A stretch of DNA of 64,000 nucleotides from Antrihabitans stalactiti (GTDB lineage: Bacteria > Actinomycetota > Actinomycetes > Mycobacteriales > Mycobacteriaceae), in NCBI RefSeq assembly GCF_012932915.1, contig NZ_VCQU01000010.1, positions 1 through 64,000 of the forward strand, written 5' to 3'. A program made the translations under genes and the position numbers. Below, one piece after another: positions 50,459 to 60,121 of this stretch (position 1 is the stretch's first letter; each line of letters opens with the position of its first letter). A model generated the notes under the pieces. It was given only the letters and a program-made list of their open reading frames with translations. It was not told the DNA's origin and did not search any database.

Positions 50459-51298
50459 TCACGGCAGGCGAGGACCCTTACCCCAGTACAGGTCGCCGCG
50501 GTCGCGGTGGGCCCAGCCACCGGCGTCGTAGCCTTCGAGTGTGAATGCTTCTTCGCAGAACTGCATTCCGAAGACCGAGAGATAGATGCTGCGGTACACC
50601 GAGATGGCTCGTTTCACTCGGTGCATCGCAGCGACCGCTTCGGGGTGCGCTTCGATCAAGTAGTAGCGACGAAAATCCACCACCGGCTCGTCCGAAAACC
50701 GGACCAGCCCAAGCCTGTTCAGGTTGCCGAGGTAGTGCTTGGCACGATCGGGCCAGGCGCAGCCTGCCATGTCGGCGACGAAGGAAATACCGGCGGCGAT
50801 CCTCTGCGAACCGATTCCGAACAATGTATTCGTCCGGATGTCGATCGACGGTTGTGCACCGGCAACAGCGAGGAACCGCAGAATGCGAGCCTCATCCGGT
50901 GTGAGCTCGCTCAGGATGTGGTCGAAGGCCGGATGTTCGCGATTGGCTTGCGCGGCAGCGCTCCACGAGCGATACAACAGCTCGTCGCCTCGCCGTTTGA
51001 GTCCGCGCGGTGCGCCTTGCGATCGAGACTGCGTCTCCTCTTCGACTCCGAGCGCACTCATCGCCGCAGCACGGACCTGTTCGATCTGCGAATCCAAGAT
51101 CTCCGAGACTGGGACGCCGGTCGCGAACTGGCTTGCCACGTCACTGGCGTTGTCGACCGAACCTTTGGTGATGACGTTCACGGCTCGAAGCAACGACGCC
51201 GCCGTCAGGCGCGCAATCCCCAAGGGGTCGGCGACGTTCGCGCCCATCTTGGCGATGTCGCCGACGGAAAGGCCTGAGTCTTCATCTTTTTCGCTCAT
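50459..51298 (-). CDS. Abi-alpha (DUF4393)-like protein
   Basis: This 279-aa protein has the Abi-alpha pattern in its middle and C-terminal half: PAFDHILSELTPDEARILRFL (about 125-145) followed by AVAGAQPSIDIRT and a LGNLNRLGLVRF segment near 190. The name comes from abortive-infection proteins, but most family members have no tested function. The start is ATG 51298, 1 bp after the DUF445 stop, so translation is coupled to DUF445. It is the last gene of the uncharacterised block before the LytSR-type pair, with 56 bp to the kinase start. There are no membrane helices. Confidence 0.68.
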   Translation of the reverse strand: MSEKDEDSGLSVGDIAKMGANVADPLGIARLTAASLLRAVNVITKGSVDNASDVASQFATGVPVSEILDSQIEQVRAAAMSALGVEEETQSRSQGAPRGLKRRGDELLYRSWSAAAQANREHPAFDHILSELTPDEARILRFLAVAGAQPSIDIRTNTLFGIGSQRIAAGISFVADMAGCAWPDRAKHYLGNLNRLGLVRFSDEPVVDFRRYYLIEAHPEAVAAMHRVKRAISVYRSIYLSVFGMQFCEEAFTLEGYDAGGWAHRDRGDLYWGKGPRLP

Positions 51299-51299
51299 G

Positions 51300-52646
51300 T
51301 CATGCTCCGAACAGAACGAGGTGCGCGGCGCCCACGCCAAGACCCAACACTGCGCCGTGGACGTACAACAACCACGCGTCTTGCTCGATCACCGAGTAGA
51401 TCATGTCCATGAATTGGTCCGGTGGTAGCTCGGCAAGTTTCTGCGTCGCGAATCGTTCGATCTTGGCAGCCTGCGCATCCGTGAATTCCTTGTCCTCGGT
51501 GAGCGTGGGCGCGAAGTCGAATGTGGCGCGCGCCGAACCGGCACTGAGGGCGTCGAATTCCTTGGGACCGATCGCAACTCGAACCATCGACTTCATCGGC
51601 CCGAGAATGTGGCCGATTTCGTGGGAGACCAGATCTTCGACGAATCCACGTGTTCGGTCGCCGCGCGGACCGTTCATCAGTTCGTCTGCGATGTTGGGGA
51701 TGGTGAGCACGTCCGTCGCGAGGACCTGACCGAAATCGGCCGCGGCCTTGCCCTGCCGTTTGGCGAGCTTGGCCTGCTTCCACGGGTATTTGTAGCGCGG
51801 CTGTGGTTCTGCGGGCTCGAAGACGATCTTCACGGCGAGGTAGTTCACCGTGACGCCGATCAGGGCAGCACCGACAAGCACGACGACCCAGGTAGGGATT
51901 GCGCTGACGATCGGCACCTGATGCCAGTAGTAGATGACCAGGGCGAAGATGACGCCGAACGGTAGGCCGAGCAGTCCGATCCGAATCATGAATTTCAGCT
52001 CGGGGGCGGCGACGCGCCAGATGAGGTCTTTCATGATCGTCGGATTGTCGGACAGGAATCGAATGGCCATGAGCCGGACGTCGACCATCTGCTCGACGTT
52101 CTCGCCGACTTTGTCGAGCGCACGAGTGGTGATTGCGGGCATTTGGTCTTCGATCGTCTTGACGAGAGTTTCCCGTACTCCCGGCGTCATGTCGCGCCAC
52201 AACTGCGGGTGTTCGCGTTCCATCACGTCGGCGACCAAACTCGGTAGATCCTCTTTCACGATCTCCGTGATGTGGCCTGCCAGTTGTTCCGGCTCGAACT
52301 GGAGGTACATGTCTTTGACGTTGCCGATCTTCATGATCGCTTTGTCGACGGCGAAGCAGGCCAGTTTTTCCGCACGTGCAGGAATGAAGCCCTGGTAACC
52401 GATGATTCCGCCGGGTGCCCACAGCGGCAGAACCTGCACGCGACGGGGGAGGAACGGGAAGATCGTTTTCAAGCCCGGAAGGTAGAAGCCACGAAACTGC
52501 ACCGGCGTGAACAGCATGAAAACGCCTGTCCAGTTGGTAATTACGCCTGCGATCACGCTCACGAGCGGGATGCTGATCATGTCGACCCAGAATTTCGACA
52601 GGCCGGTCATTTCCTCCCAATCGAGGAATGGACCGCTCGCAATCAT
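51300..52646 (-). CDS. DUF445 family membrane protein (paralogue 1)
   Basis: This 448-aa protein has DUF445 features: an N-terminal helix with IPLVSVIAGVITNWTGVFMLFTPVQFRGF (about 18-46, NWxG and PxxFxG type), GIIGYQGFIPARAEKLA (about 70-86) and a second membrane pair in the middle (about 220-275, with VNYLAVKIVFEP). It ends in a hydrophobic tail. DUF445 proteins are inner-membrane proteins of unknown role. The start is ATG 52646; a better-looking GGGAGGAA lies too close to an internal ATG. The next gene downstream follows with 1 bp between stop and start. Confidence 0.87.
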   Translation of the reverse strand: MIASGPFLDWEEMTGLSKFWVDMISIPLVSVIAGVITNWTGVFMLFTPVQFRGFYLPGLKTIFPFLPRRVQVLPLWAPGGIIGYQGFIPARAEKLACFAVDKAIMKIGNVKDMYLQFEPEQLAGHITEIVKEDLPSLVADVMEREHPQLWRDMTPGVRETLVKTIEDQMPAITTRALDKVGENVEQMVDVRLMAIRFLSDNPTIMKDLIWRVAAPELKFMIRIGLLGLPFGVIFALVIYYWHQVPIVSAIPTWVVVLVGAALIGVTVNYLAVKIVFEPAEPQPRYKYPWKQAKLAKRQGKAAADFGQVLATDVLTIPNIADELMNGPRGDRTRGFVEDLVSHEIGHILGPMKSMVRVAIGPKEFDALSAGSARATFDFAPTLTEDKEFTDAQAAKIERFATQKLAELPPDQFMDMIYSVIEQDAWLLYVHGAVLGLGVGAAHLVLFGA

Positions 52647-52725
52647 GTCCACAATTCCACTTCCATACAGCGTTGGATGGCCAGAGCTCGATGCGAAGTC
52701 TAACGGTGGGTGATCCGAATGCGGA

Positions 52726-53736
52726 TCAGTCGAGTATCTGTTGCACGGCCGGGGAATTGAAGAAGTCCGTATGGGTGCGTCGGACGGCGTCCTCGAACAT
52801 TCCGTTCGCCACCACGAGTTCGAGAAGCGGCGGTGCAAAACGGTTCGCCTCTTCGAGAATGTCGTCGCGCCCGACGCCGATGTCTTCGAGCAACTCGGCC
52901 AGACTCGTCTCCCCATACTTCTCGAAGAAATAGCCGACGCCTTCGGCCAAGAGCTCGCGAAAGTACTCCGTTTTGCGGAAGCTGAACCAGAACTCGAAGA
53001 TCAGGACCAGCAGGTCCTCGATATCGTCGGCCGAGACCAGGTCGCCGAACGAGCTGATCGGCTCGTCGGAGTGTCGCTGCCACAGGTCGACGGTCGCGTC
53101 GACGAGCGGGCTGGGTTCGTCGGTGTTTGCCGAGGCGCGGGCTTTTGCCTGAACGTAGCGAACCAGCCGTTCGGATAGCTCCTGCAACCGCAGATCGGCC
53201 TGTCGTCCGGCGCCGGGTGCGATTCGCTCGAGGATTTGGGCGCCCGCTTCGATCACCTCGGCCACACCGGGGACCTTCTCGGCGACCCGCCGGTTGTCGG
53301 CGATCACGTCTGCTGCGACGCGGTGGACCAGCCACGACGCCCAACTTGTCGCCAGCGGACTTTCGGCCAGCCTGTCGACGAATCGTCCGAAGGCAGGCAA
53401 GCCGGTGAGCGAGGCTGTCAGCTCCTCGAACTGCCGTTCGTCGAGCAAGAGACGCAACGGCTCGCGACCGTGAACGCTGTGCCCGTACAAGCGGCGAGCC
53501 ATCTCACCGGCAAGTTCGGGGATGGATCCGTCGATCCGCCAATTCGCGGCGTATTTCTGTGCGACTGCAGTGATCTGCTCGGCAGTGACCGCTTGGTTCA
53601 ACGTCAACTTCGCGGCGTCGGCGAGCGTTGCATCGACTTCGCGCTCGATCAGCGCCGTCAACGAATCGCTGGTCAGCTGCTGCCGCCAGTATTCGACGAG
53701 CGCGGTCAGCAGAAGGTCGGCTTTCGTGTCGGTCAC
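52726..53736 (-). CDS. Uncharacterised helical protein, paralogue of 35883-36899
   Basis: I do not recognise this 336-aa protein. It is rich in charged amphipathic helices, with no membrane segment or signal peptide. It shares motif order with the 338-aa product at 35883-36899 (ESPL, ADNRR..EKVPG, DEPISS, GVGRDDILEEANRFAPP). It lies between GGDEF-EAL and DUF445 genes on the same strand. The start is GTG 53736 (VTDTKADLLL), which makes its length match the paralogue. The longer open frame runs into the GGDEF-EAL coding region and was rejected. Confidence 0.72.
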   Translation of the reverse strand: MTDTKADLLLTALVEYWRQQLTSDSLTALIEREVDATLADAAKLTLNQAVTAEQITAVAQKYAANWRIDGSIPELAGEMARRLYGHSVHGREPLRLLLDERQFEELTASLTGLPAFGRFVDRLAESPLATSWASWLVHRVAADVIADNRRVAEKVPGVAEVIEAGAQILERIAPGAGRQADLRLQELSERLVRYVQAKARASANTDEPSPLVDATVDLWQRHSDEPISSFGDLVSADDIEDLLVLIFEFWFSFRKTEYFRELLAEGVGYFFEKYGETSLAELLEDIGVGRDDILEEANRFAPPLLELVVANGMFEDAVRRTHTDFFNSPAVQQILD

Positions 53737-53770: not shown

Positions 53771-55516
53771 TCACAGCAGGCGCAGTTCGAGTGCTGGTTG
53801 CGGGCGTGCATAGAAGTAGCCCTGAGACAGGTCGATGCCGTGGCCGGCGACCAGAGCGGCTTGTTCTCGTGTTTCGACGCCTTCCACAATGACCTCGAGG
53901 TCGAATGCTGCCGCGATGGCGGTGATCGCATTCAGCAGTGGGTGCGCCGCCTCGGTATCGGCAATGATCGCGCCGTCGACCTTGAGGATGTCGCACGGCA
54001 GTGTCGCAACCCTGCTCAAAGTGGAGTAGCCGCTGCCGAAATCGTCGACGGCGATCCGAATTCCCATGTCGCGCAACTGCGCGAGGAGTCGCGTCGCGTC
54101 GCGAGAATCGGCGGCAAGGTCGGTTTCGGTCACTTCGAGCACGAGTCGTTCTGCGGGCCAACCGGTTCGGGCAAGTATCGCGGCGACGATGTCGGCGTAG
54201 GCATGACCGTTGAGCTCGGGGCCAGAGACGTTGACGTGGAGGTCGAGCGGTCGCGCGATGTTCGCCTGCAGCTGGTGAGCCTGGGTACAGGCGAGGTCGA
54301 GTACGAGCCGGCCCAGGTCGGAAATGAGGTCGTTGTCTTCGGCGAGTCGTACCAGCCCTTCCGGTGTGATGTCTGGGTGCAGCGTGGCGGGCCACCGCAC
54401 CAGGGCCTCGACGGCCACCGCTTCGGCAGTGCCGCGATCGGATATCCGGACGATCGGCTGGAAAAATACAGCGAGAGCGCGGGTTTCGATGGCGTGACGG
54501 AGTGAGTCGACGATCGCCGGCCGTTCTGCGGACTCGACTACGACGCGACCGCGGCCAGCGTTCTTGGCCCGGTACAGCGCGATATCGGCGCGGCCGATGA
54601 TCAGCGACGCGGAGTCCCCGCGCCGCCAACTGGTGATCCCGGCGGAGCAGTCCGTGGAGGCGGCCGATCGAAGCTGATCTGCGATCAGTGCTGCTTCCGT
54701 CTCGGAGGTGTTCGGAAGCAACAGGGCGAATTCGTCGCCGCCGTAGCGGGAGAGGAGCCGGCCGGGTTTGAGGATGTTCAGCCACGCCTCCGCGACTTGT
54801 TTCAGTAGCTGGTCCCCAGCGGTGTGTCCGAGGTGGTCGTTGATCGATTTGAAACGGTCCAAATCGAAAAGCACAAGCGCCAACGACTGCCCGGAAGTCG
54901 CTGCCTTCTCCATTTCCACGTAGAGCACATTGTCGAGCCCGCGGCGGTTCAGAAGCCCGGTCAAGGGGTCGAACACCGCTTCTCTCGCGACAATGTTGAG
55001 CGCTGTCACCGATGCCCCGACGAGGCCGGCTGCGGTCGCAGGCAGAACCGCCGCCCACCAGGGCATGTCGTCGTCGAGCATTCCGACGACAAGGCAGAAA
55101 ATGACTACCGTCGTGATGAGGACGGTTGCTTTCGGCCAGCTGAAAGCGAGTGCGGCGTGACACGTGATGCATGTGTAGATGGATGCGATGGCGACATCGC
55201 CCGCAACGGTCGGTGCCTGCCCGATCAACACAGTCACCACGACGATCGAGAGGCCGACGAACGCCAGATGCGCGTTAGTTGTCAATCGCGATCGCAGAAT
55301 GTGGACGCCGATTCCCATGACGATCGAAAAGGCCGAGCCGCCGACAATGATCAACTTGTTCGAATCTGGCGCCGGCATTGCCGATCCGAAGATGATGCCA
55401 GCCACGCCGATGACGAGGAAAAACCCTGCTGTCGTGCGACCCATCACGTCCCGGTTGGTCAACGCGGGAGCCGGGATCGCGGCGGCGATCACACGCTGCC
55501 GCGCAGTTCGGTCCAT
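53771..55516 (-). CDS. Membrane GGDEF-EAL cyclic-di-GMP protein
   Basis: This is a 581-aa protein. It has about six membrane helices (about 25-170), a GGDEF domain (about 180-330) with intact SRYGGDEFALLLP, and an EAL domain (about 340-575). The EAL domain has VAVEALVRW, the Asn in LHVNVSGPE, Glu in LEVTETDL, DDFGSGYS, KVDGAI and EGVET, all at expected places. Both synthase and phosphodiesterase activity are therefore plausible. It is the second gene of the minus-strand block, 44 bp after the upstream DUF445 stop. The next gene, for the helical protein, starts 34 bp downstream of its stop. Confidence 0.92.
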   Translation of the reverse strand: MDRTARQRVIAAAIPAPALTNRDVMGRTTAGFFLVIGVAGIIFGSAMPAPDSNKLIIVGGSAFSIVMGIGVHILRSRLTTNAHLAFVGLSIVVVTVLIGQAPTVAGDVAIASIYTCITCHAALAFSWPKATVLITTVVIFCLVVGMLDDDMPWWAAVLPATAAGLVGASVTALNIVAREAVFDPLTGLLNRRGLDNVLYVEMEKAATSGQSLALVLFDLDRFKSINDHLGHTAGDQLLKQVAEAWLNILKPGRLLSRYGGDEFALLLPNTSETEAALIADQLRSAASTDCSAGITSWRRGDSASLIIGRADIALYRAKNAGRGRVVVESAERPAIVDSLRHAIETRALAVFFQPIVRISDRGTAEAVAVEALVRWPATLHPDITPEGLVRLAEDNDLISDLGRLVLDLACTQAHQLQANIARPLDLHVNVSGPELNGHAYADIVAAILARTGWPAERLVLEVTETDLAADSRDATRLLAQLRDMGIRIAVDDFGSGYSTLSRVATLPCDILKVDGAIIADTEAAHPLLNAITAIAAAFDLEVIVEGVETREQAALVAGHGIDLSQGYFYARPQPALELRLL

Positions 55517-55560
55517 TGCGTAACACTAACGACCGACGATGTACATCGGCTGTAAACGGT

Positions 55561-56793: not shown

Positions 56794-56810
56794 CTCAGTA
56801 GTTGCCGCAC

Positions 56811-56832
56811 AAACTAGAACGTGTTCTAGTTT
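56811..56832. promoter_or_regulatory. KstR-type operator
   Basis: A perfect 22-bp palindrome has core TAGAACGTGTTCTA at 56815-56828. It fits the published KstR consensus TnnAACnnGTTnnA, the operator of the cholesterol-catabolism repressor in Mycobacterium and Rhodococcus. It lies 18 bp before the GTG of the DUF445 gene (minus) and 108 bp before the FAD gene (plus). A second TTCTAG at 56831 partly repeats the half-site. Confidence 0.75.
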
Positions 56833-56897
56833 CTAGGGTGACATGCACGAAAGCGTCGTGTCAATCGGAGCGTCTATTGACATGAGGCGGGCTGTTG

Positions 56898-56926
56898 GTC
56901 ATACACTCACGAAACAAATGTATGAC
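56898..56926 (+). promoter_or_regulatory. Inverted repeat at the promoter of the FAD-membrane-TetR operon
   Basis: GTCATACA (56898-56905) and TGTATGAC (56919-56926) are perfect 8-bp arms separated by 13 bp. TATGAC (56921-56926) is a possible -10 element, with GTCATA 17 bp upstream as a weak -35, so the arms cover the promoter. It ends 14 bp before ATG 56941. It could be the site of the TetR regulator encoded third in the operon; that is inference. Confidence 0.55.
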
Positions 56927-56940
56927 CGGAAGGCGGATCA

Positions 56941-58404
56941 ATGACGATCGGAAGTCGCGTTGTCATCTTGGGCGGCAGTGTCGCGGGGTTGTGCGCCGCA
57001 GGCGCCGTCGCATCGCACTTCGACGAGGTGATCGTGCTCGAGCGGGATTCGCTGCCGGCGGATGCGCAGCATCGTCGAGGCGTGCCGCAGAGCAAACACC
57101 CGCACTTCCTGTTGAACTCCGGTCGGCGCGCGATCGAGGTGTTGTTCCCGGGTTACGAGGCGGCACTCCTCGCGGCAGGCGGCCGCATGTTGAACCCCTC
57201 GCGGGACGCTGCGTATTGCGAGGCGGTCGGTTGGGCGCCGCGAAAATCGGGTTCTATGACGATGATCTACGGTTCGCGAATCCTGATCGAGCGAGTCTTG
57301 CGAGACATGGTGCGCAAGCTGGACAACGTGACGATCCGCGAGGACATCGTAGTTCGAGGGATCGAGACCTCGCAGAAGCTGGGCCGCGTCACTGGCGTCC
57401 GCTTCGTGGATGGCCAAGGCGAACAATCGATTTCGTCCGATCTGGTCATCGATGCGATGGGTAGAGGCTCGTCGGTCCCGGCGTGGCTGGCTGCGGCGGG
57501 CTGGCCGGAACCGCCGGTGCGTTCGCTCGACGCCAAAGTTGCCTATTCGTCGCTGTGGTACCAACTTCCGCCGGTCGAAGAGCGGCCCGACAGTTGGTGG
57601 TGGCAGCACTTGGCGATCATGCCCAACCAGGCCAAGGGCGAACATCCCGAGGAATTCGACTATTTGGTCAACTTCTTCCCGATCGAGGGTGACCGCGCAA
57701 TCGCGTGCATGGGCGCCTGGGGCTTGGAGTTGCCGAAGAAGACCGACACGTTTCTCGAAGCGGCACAACGGATCCGCACCCCGGTGTTCGCGGCCGCGAT
57801 GCAGAAATGTGAACAGCTCTCCGAGGTGCACCTCACGCGCTCGACCGGCAACAAGTGGCGCCGGTACGACTTGGTGGACAATCCGCCACTCGGCCTGATC
57901 GCGATCGGCGATTCGATCTGCGCGTTCAACCCGTTCTATGGCCAGGGGATGAGTTCGGCCGCGCGGTCGGCGCTCATCTTGGCCGAGCAACTGAGTGGCA
58001 CCCGACAGCTCGACCGGTCCTTCCTTCACCGCTTTCTCGAGGAGCAACGTAAGTCGCTGCGCGTGCCGTGGATGCTCGCGATCGCCCGCGACCAAGGGTA
58101 CGAACACGCGACCGGCACCGAGATTGCGTCACCGCTGCGGCGCAAAGTCTCCGCGGCGATGGTGTGGCCGGTATTCAACCTCATCACGGCCGCCGGACGC
58201 GAGGACGACGTCGTCGAAGATCATTTCGCTCGCGTCTTCAATCTCGACGAGTCGATGATGGAGATGGCCAGGAACCCGCGCGTGCTCGCCGGTCTTCTGC
58301 GCTACAAGGTCAAGCTGATGCTCGGACGGCAGAAGATGCCGAGGAGCTTCGACCTGCAGCTCGATCCACCTGCGACGGACTACACCTTGAGTGCGTCGGC
58401 ATGA
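56941..58404 (+). CDS. FAD-dependent oxidoreductase/epoxidase-like protein
   Basis: This is a 487-aa flavoprotein. It has the N-terminal Rossmann motif VVILGGSVAGLCAAGAVASHF (about 8-28), an ERDSLP acidic end, and the mid-region IAIGDSICAFNPFYGQGMSSAARSAL (about 320-345), which is the FAD-ribityl GD motif. It resembles geranylgeranyl-reductase/epoxidase-like monooxygenases of the UbiH-PHBH superfamily; the substrate is unknown. The start is ATG 56941 with a GGAAGGCGG Shine-Dalgarno. The stop overlaps the next gene by 4 bp (ATGA). A KstR-type box lies 108 bp upstream. Confidence 0.82.
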   Translation: MTIGSRVVILGGSVAGLCAAGAVASHFDEVIVLERDSLPADAQHRRGVPQSKHPHFLLNSGRRAIEVLFPGYEAALLAAGGRMLNPSRDAAYCEAVGWAPRKSGSMTMIYGSRILIERVLRDMVRKLDNVTIREDIVVRGIETSQKLGRVTGVRFVDGQGEQSISSDLVIDAMGRGSSVPAWLAAAGWPEPPVRSLDAKVAYSSLWYQLPPVEERPDSWWWQHLAIMPNQAKGEHPEEFDYLVNFFPIEGDRAIACMGAWGLELPKKTDTFLEAAQRIRTPVFAAAMQKCEQLSEVHLTRSTGNKWRRYDLVDNPPLGLIAIGDSICAFNPFYGQGMSSAARSALILAEQLSGTRQLDRSFLHRFLEEQRKSLRVPWMLAIARDQGYEHATGTEIASPLRRKVSAAMVWPVFNLITAAGREDDVVEDHFARVFNLDESMMEMARNPRVLAGLLRYKVKLMLGRQKMPRSFDLQLDPPATDYTLSASA

Positions 58405-59519
58405 CAGCGACGTGTGACGCCGCGGCAGAGCGCATTACGGCGTCGTTGGGCTTCTCCTGCCATGACGTGAACCCGGTGCTCACGGTCCGGAATCCCGCCG
58501 ATCTGGCGAACTGGACGATGCCGGTGCTCGAGGTGCTGATCATCGGTGGTGCGATATTCGCGTTGGTTCATGCGCTGCGACGGCTGCGTCGTGACGGAGA
58601 TCCGACGAATCTCGCGCTGTGGTTCGCATCGCTGGTGTACCTGTTCGTCGTCGAACCGCCGTTGTACTTCCCGGAGTGGTTCGGCCTGGAGGACCAATTC
58701 GGGTTCATTTTTGCGCACAACGTATTCACGGTGCAGTTCATGTACGACCGGCTCCCGCTCTACATCGTGGCGATCTATCCGGTGCTCAGCCAGCTTGCCT
58801 ACGAGCTGGTTCGGGTGCTCGGCGTCTTCGCCCGCAGGGGCGCCTTCGTCGGCGCGGTCTGCGTGGCGTTGGTGTGCCAAGTGTTCTACGAGGTCTTCGA
58901 TCAGCTCGGTCCGCAGCTGAAGTGGTGGGCGTGGAACCTCGACAACAAGGTGAACCATCCGCTCATGGCGGCTGTCCCGATGAACAGCGTCGTGTTGTTC
59001 GCATCGGTGTCGTTCGGCGCGATCACGTTTCTGGTCGTGAAGCTGGTCGGCCAGCCGGTCTGGCGCGGCAGGCGCTTGCCGGCGTGGTCGCTGGTTCTGC
59101 GCATCGTGATTGCGGGCGCATTGGCGCCGCTGGCGATGCCGATCGCCGGATTGCCCACCGCCCCATTCGGCGGCGACGATCCCAACACGACTGGTCAAGC
59201 GATCGTGCTGGCCATCGAGCTGGCGTTGTTGTGGGTGGTCGGCGGGACGATTTTGGTCCGGCAGTGGCTGGACCAGCCTGTTCCCACCGAATCGGAACCG
59301 GTCGACGCGTTCGTGCGGATCTATCCGGCCGTGTACCTCGTTGTTCTCGGCATTCTGTGGGTAAGCGCGTTGCCGGCGTTCATCGGGGCTCGTGACGGCA
59401 TCACCCTCGACGGCACACCGATCGGCAACGGGCCGTACACGTTGTTGTGTTTCGTCGCATCCGTTGCGTGCGTCGCTGTAGCCCTGTTCCCTCGACGTCG
59501 TGCGATGATCCCGGCGTGA
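58401..59519 (+). CDS. Polytopic membrane protein of unknown function
   Basis: This is a 372-aa protein with roughly nine to ten membrane helices, first at about 40-62. Aromatic loops include YLFVVEPPLYFPEWFGLEDQ and FIFAHNVFTVQFMYDRLPLY; acidic and tyrosine residues there may bind a metal or hydrophobic ligand. I do not recognise the family. Translation is coupled both ways: ATGA with the FAD gene before it and GTGA with the TetR gene after it. This suggests that it works with the FAD protein on the same compound. The start ATG 58401 is fixed by the overlap. Confidence 0.72.
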   Translation: MTATCDAAAERITASLGFSCHDVNPVLTVRNPADLANWTMPVLEVLIIGGAIFALVHALRRLRRDGDPTNLALWFASLVYLFVVEPPLYFPEWFGLEDQFGFIFAHNVFTVQFMYDRLPLYIVAIYPVLSQLAYELVRVLGVFARRGAFVGAVCVALVCQVFYEVFDQLGPQLKWWAWNLDNKVNHPLMAAVPMNSVVLFASVSFGAITFLVVKLVGQPVWRGRRLPAWSLVLRIVIAGALAPLAMPIAGLPTAPFGGDDPNTTGQAIVLAIELALLWVVGGTILVRQWLDQPVPTESEPVDAFVRIYPAVYLVVLGILWVSALPAFIGARDGITLDGTPIGNGPYTLLCFVASVACVAVALFPRRRAMIPA

Positions 59520-60121
59520 GAACTCGCGGCTGGAACGGCGACCTGCCCCGAGACGAGGACGATGCGCGCAAACGCATCGTCGACGCAGCCACGCGTTGCG
59601 TCGATCGACTCGGACCGACGAAGGTGAACATCGCTGCCGTTGCGACCGAGTTGGGGATCACTCGTCAAACGGTGTACCGATACTTTCCTGGTTTGCCGGA
59701 CTTGCTCGCAGCTGTCGCGGAAGCGGGCACCGAGCAGTTTCTGGCGCGGATGGAGGCGCATCTCGCCCACGTCACGAGCGCCGAGGAGGCCGTTGCCGAG
59801 TCGATTGTGTTCTCGTTGAACGCGATTCCGACCGAGCCCTACATCGGTCTGCTGATCCAGGCGGGGGAGAACGAGGTCTTCAGCCGAGGAGTGACGTCGT
59901 CGCAGGCGATGTCGTACGGCGCGCAAATGTTGGGCCGTATGCCTGTCGATTGGGATTCGATCGGGGTCCGCGGGGGAGACCTCGAGTCGCTCGCCGAGAT
60001 CATCATGCGACTCATGGTGTCGTTTCTCGAGTATCCCGCCGACCCGCCTCGCTCCGACGACGAGGTCCGGACGTTGGTTCGGCGGTGGCTCGGTCCCGCG
60101 CTAGTACACCGATCGGTTTAA
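59516..60121 (+). CDS. TetR-family regulator, third gene of the FAD-membrane operon
   Basis: This 201-aa repressor has an N-terminal HTH (about 15-65): RKRIVDAATRCVDRLGPTKV and ELGITRQTVYRYFPGLPDLL. The C-terminal ligand domain has no further recognisable signature. The start is GTG 59516, overlapping the membrane-protein stop (GTGA). It is probably an autoregulator of its own operon, with the inverted repeat at 56898-56926 as candidate site. The next TetR gene starts 14 bp downstream. Confidence 0.85.
   Translation: MRTRGWNGDLPRDEDDARKRIVDAATRCVDRLGPTKVNIAAVATELGITRQTVYRYFPGLPDLLAAVAEAGTEQFLARMEAHLAHVTSAEEAVAESIVFSLNAIPTEPYIGLLIQAGENEVFSRGVTSSQAMSYGAQMLGRMPVDWDSIGVRGGDLESLAEIIMRLMVSFLEYPADPPRSDDEVRTLVRRWLGPALVHRSV

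Follow-up and report, generated by a model that had tools for sequence, protein, structure and literature searches.

Organization of the locus

The analysed window (the whole stretch of DNA, 64 kb in length) contains a gene of a DUF445 membrane protein and, divergently oriented, a gene of a FAD-dependent oxidoreductase. They are separated by an intergenic region of 147 bp (56794–56940), which houses an operator of the KstR type. The start of the DUF445 gene is slightly unsure: the sequence GAGGTGA, resembling a ribosome-binding site, overlaps the GTG codon. The coordinates of all features are given in Table 1.

Table 1. Features of the DUF445 locus, positions in the window
Feature	Position	Strand	Basis
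GGDEF-EAL gene; co-control by read-through possible, not conserved	53771..55516	-	homologue loci
Gap of 44 bp between the DUF445 and GGDEF-EAL genes with TAGTGT-N6-ATG, possible leaderless promoter	55517..55560	-	inference
DUF445 membrane protein, 410 aa, PF04286	55561..56793	-	Pfam 74.6 bits, cut-off 33.8
Hexamer TAGTTT, possibly the -10 element of the DUF445 promoter; overlaps the operator	56811..56816	-	by eye
KstR-type operator, 10-bp inverted-repeat arms and GT spacer	56811..56832	.	pattern and matrix scores
Second inverted repeat GGTCATACA-N13-TGTATGACC, before the FAD gene	56897..56927	.	conserved in relatives
FAD-dependent oxidoreductase gene, divergent	56941..58404	+	Pfam matches below curated cut-offs
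TetR-family regulator, candidate for the 56897-56927 repeat	59447..60121	+	TetR_N 31.3 bits; KstR model 25.6, cut-off 280
Second DUF445 paralogue	frame 51300-52916		DUF445 25.1 bits, under cut-off

Sequence of the operator and matrix scores

The operator is composed of the arms AAACTAGAAC (56811–56820) and GTTCTAGTTT (56823–56832), which are 100% complementary to each other, and the non-palindromic spacer GT; its core TAGAACGTGTTCTA occupies positions 56815–56828. The earlier note described the site as a perfect 22-bp palindrome 18 bp from the DUF445 start. The arms, of 10 bp each, are indeed perfect, but the central GT breaks the symmetry, leaving 20 of 22 positions palindromic in a 10+2+10 inverted repeat, and 17 bp separate the site from the GTG start (56793). 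The pattern TnnAACnnGTTnnA was found twice in the window, versus 0.26 matches expected from shuffled sequences; the second match, 57925–57938, falls within the FAD gene.

Two matrices were used for scoring. Matrix 1 was built from eight boxes of the steroid cluster of the same genome only (L023–L030), and matrix 2 from 21 distinct mycobacterial sites supported by EMSA or RT-qPCR, taken from Table 3 of Kendall 2007 (PMC1995591). Matrix 1 gave the DUF445 site 34.3 bits and no other place in the window more than 6.7. By matrix 2, its score was 23.9 bits, while the supported sites themselves scored 9.9–22.6; 9.4 was the highest value both among unrelated places elsewhere in the window and among 3987 random 250-bp window stretches. 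Across 92 DUF445 loci (L042–L133), places unrelated to the promoter reached up to 15.5 bits, far below 23.9. The core of the site is identical, letter for letter, to that of the kstR promoter site of M. tuberculosis and M. smegmatis in the same Table 3 (PMC1995591), where EMSA binding is recorded for the M. tuberculosis site. The operator sequence is present and scores far above background, i.e., the box is real.

KstR and KstR-type boxes in the genome

The earlier note proposed a search of the whole genome for kstR and other boxes and regarded a genome lacking kstR as evidence against its reading. A profile search revealed kstR at C23:179828–180373 (model NF033703, 338.9 bits; cut-off 280), which excludes the latter case, and the box family was found at steroid genes. 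The KstR model had 78 matches in the genome at E ≤ 0.001, one of them above the cut-off; the runner-up was a TetR protein with 45.5 bits. The best matches of this KstR in the PDB were the structures of M. tuberculosis KstR (3mnl, 5cw8), and the DNA-binding region is almost identical.

The pattern TAGAACnnGTTnnA had 37 matches in the genome (16 + 21), corresponding to 26 distinct places, and the reversed pattern had 9 (7 + 2); the full TAGAACnnGTTCTA was found at 11 of the TAGAACnnGTTnnA places. Steroid genes adjacent to boxes are represented by kstR, kstD (882 bits; cut-off 788), kshA (KshA_C, 309.6 bits), hsaA, paired with kshA (707.6 bits; cut-off 450), and the gene for fadA5-type steroid 3-ketoacyl-CoA thiolase (723.1 bits; cut-off 515) with a divergent P450 gene. 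Other scanned genes flanking the boxes encode acyl-CoA dehydrogenases, CoA ligase, wax-ester synthase, SnoaL-like proteins and enoyl-CoA hydratase. The steroid cluster is located on contig C23, and the window on contig C2.

By matrix 2, the DUF445 site was joint first with L007 (23.9 bits) among 24 loci of this genome, some of which overlap. Ten other loci of the genome, containing the loose consensus only, were scored with the same matrix as a control; nine had scores of 4.0–9.4 and L008 had 16.7, i.e., the control was not clean.

Less expected genes were also present among the scanned flanks of the boxes. Strong KstR-type boxes adjoin the gene of an FdhF/YdeP-type oxidoreductase (L019, C12:51126), an RNase D-like gene (L007, C1:651230) and the gene of an APH-type phosphotransferase (L020, C20:570780); these are possibly further KstR targets or boxes of neighbouring genes.

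The gene kstR was found above the cut-off in all 22 genomes checked, both with and without the DUF445 box. Since box-less genomes also contain it, the presence of kstR alone is no predictor of the box at DUF445.

Box at the orthologue in Antrihabitans sp. YC2-6

The sole close DUF445 orthologue found in the four genomes of the genus belongs to Antrihabitans sp. YC2-6 (L042, 85% identical), and the close orthologue group is thus present in only two of the four. The exact TAGAACAGGTTCTA is located 106–119 bases before its start, and the one-mismatch box TAGAACAAGTTCTC 50–63 bases before it. The core of the exact box, read on the other strand, is that of the EMSA-positive M. tuberculosis site of Rv3520c in PMC1995591. 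The protein start V-x-V-L-x-S-F is common to both Antrihabitans loci. The neighbourhood of the DUF445 gene in YC2-6 is unlike that in the window, and only the coding region is aligned by blastn; the box therefore did not simply travel with the DNA around the gene.

In YC2-6, the boxed DUF445 gene is followed (L042, 7259–13061) by genes for alpha/beta hydrolase, about 31 bp further on, a PucR-type regulator, acyl-CoA ligase and a DUF3556 membrane protein. The alpha/beta hydrolase was searched in the genus as a possible shared partner: it had no match in the genome of the window (E ≤ 1e-50), whereas G002, taken as YC2-6, contains it and G003 has a match to part of the protein.

Distribution of the box among DUF445 homologues

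In the search for the DUF445 family, 29 of 401 genomes had matches at E ≤ 1e-100. The box is absent from the promoter in 25 of 28 further loci of this search and in all six named Nocardia loci (48–52% identity), and the exact pattern is absent from all 28 other DUF445 loci of the genus. The nearest box-less homologues, L079 and L080 (57%), have no box, although their genomes contain kstR.

DUF445 genes are amplified in the genome of the window, with 17 matched places, some of which are parts of one gene; genomes of the genus contain 4–17 each. One paralogue of this genome (L061, 1108–1121; G000:C20) has the one-mismatch core TGTTACATGTTCTA approximately 190 bp upstream of the likely start; the matrices disagree on it (17.1 by matrix 1, below 9.5 by matrix 2), and a few other chance places score similarly. 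In three paralogues of the genus, scores of 9.6–12.1 were obtained roughly 200 bases ahead of the point where the match begins.

A further search was performed in Nocardia with a Nocardia DUF445 homologue (E ≤ 1e-120); matches were found in 35 of 150 genomes at 44 places, and 30 loci were fetched, a second 84% copy in G405 lying outside the fetched set. All 13 loci at least 84% identical to the query contain an element at the same place, in ten of them as exact TnnAACnnGTTnnA. A degenerate element is present in all four loci with 77–81% identity (L117–L120), and no element was found in the 13 loci with 63–74% identity. The degenerate form, GTTAGAAACCTGTTACTG, lies some 67 bases ahead of the start of the DUF445 match and departs from the consensus, as if decaying. 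The 17 loci (13 with the box and 4 with the degenerate form) constitute one supported clade. Across the aligned DNA from the upstream gene (SnoaL-like in L083) to DUF445, conservation is highest in the element. By matrix 2, the 13 elements score 7.0–19.8: three of them (7.0, 8.8 and 9.1) fall short of the lowest-scoring supported site (9.9), and the majority of the others, with 10.4–14.6, are within the range of unrelated places (up to 15.5). Owing to these low scores, the Nocardia case rests on the alignment, fixed position and conservation, and not on the score.

The tree was built for 54 DUF445 proteins. Six loci of the family search, six Nocardia loci (five of which coincide with places of the family search) and 25 other paralogue loci of the genus, all box-less, were left out. 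The state of the box changes twice on the tree if degenerate forms are counted as boxes and three times if they are not, and box-less homologues are positioned between the two box groups. Forcing the 19 box rows into a single clade was rejected with p-AU 6e-83, in a test weakened by long branches and the post-hoc choice of the group. This topology speaks for DUF445 having been recruited twice into the KstR regulon; the alternative would be one ancient box lost many times. As judged from the loci compared, the predicted KstR box is a trait confined to a single orthologue group and a single clade in Nocardia, and not one of DUF445 at large.

Possible promoter and proposed mechanism

The hexamer TAGTTT (56816–56811) overlaps one arm of the operator; it was read as a possible -10 element on the basis of the -10 pattern TANNNT. 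In the Nocardia clade, TACAGT overlaps the box in most loci. A sigma-70 scan of the region found no promoter. An overlap of the -10 element and the operator is described for the kstR promoter in Kendall 2007 (PMC1995591).

KstR is a TetR-type repressor of sterol catabolism in Mycobacterium and Rhodococcus (Kendall 2007, PMC1995591). According to a review (PMC6678751), it is released by 3-hydroxy-cholest-5-en-26-oyl-CoA, and cholesterol itself has no releasing effect in M. smegmatis. A KstR dimer bound at the operator would mask what is presumed to be the -10 region of the DUF445 promoter and block transcription. In the course of sterol breakdown, an early CoA-thioester intermediate would bind KstR, which would then leave the operator, and the DUF445 membrane protein would presumably be induced and made alongside the steroid-catabolic enzymes.

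The earlier note had assigned a KstR-type operator to the DUF445 gene, and this assignment is supported by kstR and boxed steroid genes in the genome and by the box at DUF445 in a second neighbourhood and a second lineage. On this comparative evidence, the palindrome appears to be a KstR operator with the DUF445 gene as its target, with a probability of roughly 0.85.

Alternative targets and regulators

The earlier note tentatively extended the control to the GGDEF-EAL, helical, second DUF445 and Abi-alpha genes. In such an operon, running from DUF445 via GGDEF-EAL to Abi-alpha, sterol breakdown would feed c-di-GMP signalling. The DUF445 and GGDEF-EAL genes lie on the same strand, 44 bp apart, and transcription could plausibly read through from the DUF445 promoter once it is derepressed. 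However, at the GGDEF-EAL start, TAGTGT-N6-ATG, no ribosome-binding site is visible, which suggests that the gap holds a leaderless promoter belonging to the GGDEF-EAL gene itself. The exact box is absent from all seven other GGDEF-EAL loci of the genus that were fetched (8 of 16 places, one being that of the window), where the best scores are 4.5–12.0. The gene after DUF445 also differs, being that of the alpha/beta hydrolase in YC2-6, and in Nocardia, where the ORFs of one locus were listed, the one that follows on the plus strand does not encode GGDEF-EAL. Common control of these genes is thus unlikely.

The Abi_alpha protein of the window (50459–51340; PF14337, 126.2 bits) also matches the candidate defence family PDC-S47.

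The box could instead serve the divergent FAD gene, alone or along with DUF445, as the 147-bp region is common to both genes and KstR boxes are often located between divergent genes, according to Kendall 2007 (PMC1995591). Orthologues of the FAD gene were found in 17 of 301 genomes at E ≤ 1e-150 (18 loci including the window), and none of the 17 other loci has a KstR box upstream of the gene. In G002, taken as YC2-6, the two genes are on separate contigs, with boxes at DUF445 only, and in the window the end of the KstR core is 112 bp ahead of the FAD start. Moreover, a separate conserved inverted repeat, close to a TTGACA, accompanies the FAD gene: TCATAC...GTATGA was found before this gene in 10 of 18 loci, including the window, in three genera, and related sequence was seen by eye in the rest. 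This repeat is probably an operator of the TetR gene located two genes downstream, and not of KstR. Control of the FAD gene by the box is accordingly quite improbable, and the DUF445 gene is the most likely owner of the operator.

It is very improbable that the box is a chance or vestigial one without effect. In Kendall 2007 (PMC1995591), 5 of 31 motif instances in M. smegmatis were judged possibly not relevant, and most DUF445 homologues have no box; against this stand the top score of the site, its promoter-proximal position, the box at the orthologue in another neighbourhood and the conservation of the box in the Nocardia clade above the rest of the intergenic region. Ownership by another TetR-type regulator, e.g., the product of 59447–60121, which the earlier note had allowed for, is hardly to be expected because the module of this nearest TetR has a different conserved inverted repeat; two TetR genes are located within 4 kb, and matches to the KstR model are numerous in the genome, but a single protein exceeds its cut-off, and the sequence of the box is that used at kstR and steroid genes.

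Properties of the DUF445 protein

The DUF445 protein is a tandem duplication, the N- and C-terminal halves of which match each other with E 3e-9 in blastp and a probability of 98.7% in hhalign. Each repeat comprises one hydrophobic segment, the conserved RP...WQG hairpin, a long helical region and another hydrophobic segment, giving four hydrophobic segments in total; the charges beside the segments suggest that both helical regions face the cytoplasm. The model of the full-length protein had a pTM of 0.65, and that of the C-terminal half alone a poor 0.37. No confident fold match in the PDB was found for the full-length model by Foldseek or VIA-align. TTYH proteins, at the top of the Foldseek list, had a TM of 0.14–0.20 and an rmsd of 15–18, and nothing was drawn from them. 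The sequence had a single match in the PDB, with E 0.97, and the phage and defence libraries gave no match for this DUF445 protein.

E. coli YjiN is a member of the DUF445 family (PF04286). There is almost no literature on the family, and the literature search found the word DUF445 in no title or abstract. In searches covering few of the subscription journals, and of papers that may mention such genes just by locus tag, none was found naming KstR and DUF445 together; a search for cholesterol, KstR and 'hypothetical membrane protein', with the same coverage of journals, likewise found none.

The DUF445 gene is very probably a new member of the known KstR regulon and not a new mechanism, the interest lying in the uncharacterised protein. 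From its regulation only, we would guess that it is an inner-membrane protein helping the membrane to handle sterols or their CoA intermediates. More specifically and quite tentatively, this DUF445 subfamily might be a dedicated inner-membrane part of sterol catabolism, recruited at least twice (in the Antrihabitans lineage and in the Nocardia clade) since it is needed on sterols, e.g., for dealing with sterol or steroid-CoA intermediates on the cytoplasmic side of the membrane. The link to KstR provides a growth condition for a phenotype search in one DUF445 subfamily and places an uncharacterised membrane protein among the possible components of sterol breakdown.

Comparison with known systems

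The KstR2 regulon is likewise governed by a TetR repressor of cholesterol catabolism, but its palindrome, AAGCAAGNNCTTGCTT as given in PMC8228715, is different. The KstR2-type pattern A.CAAG..CTTG.T had no match in the loci scanned, including L013 and L049, which cover the DUF445 site.

The protein of the window resembles the DUF445 family in its Pfam match and in the two-fold repeat with RP...WQG. It differs from the family in the KstR box, present, among the loci fetched, only in the orthologue group of the window and one Nocardia clade.

The regulation resembles that of the KstR regulon of Mycobacterium and Rhodococcus (PMC1995591): the core matches the one at the kstR promoter, the same boxes stand at kstR and steroid genes of this genome, and the site is located just upstream of the gene. 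Unlike in that regulon, the probable target here is the gene of a DUF445 membrane protein, located away from the steroid cluster.
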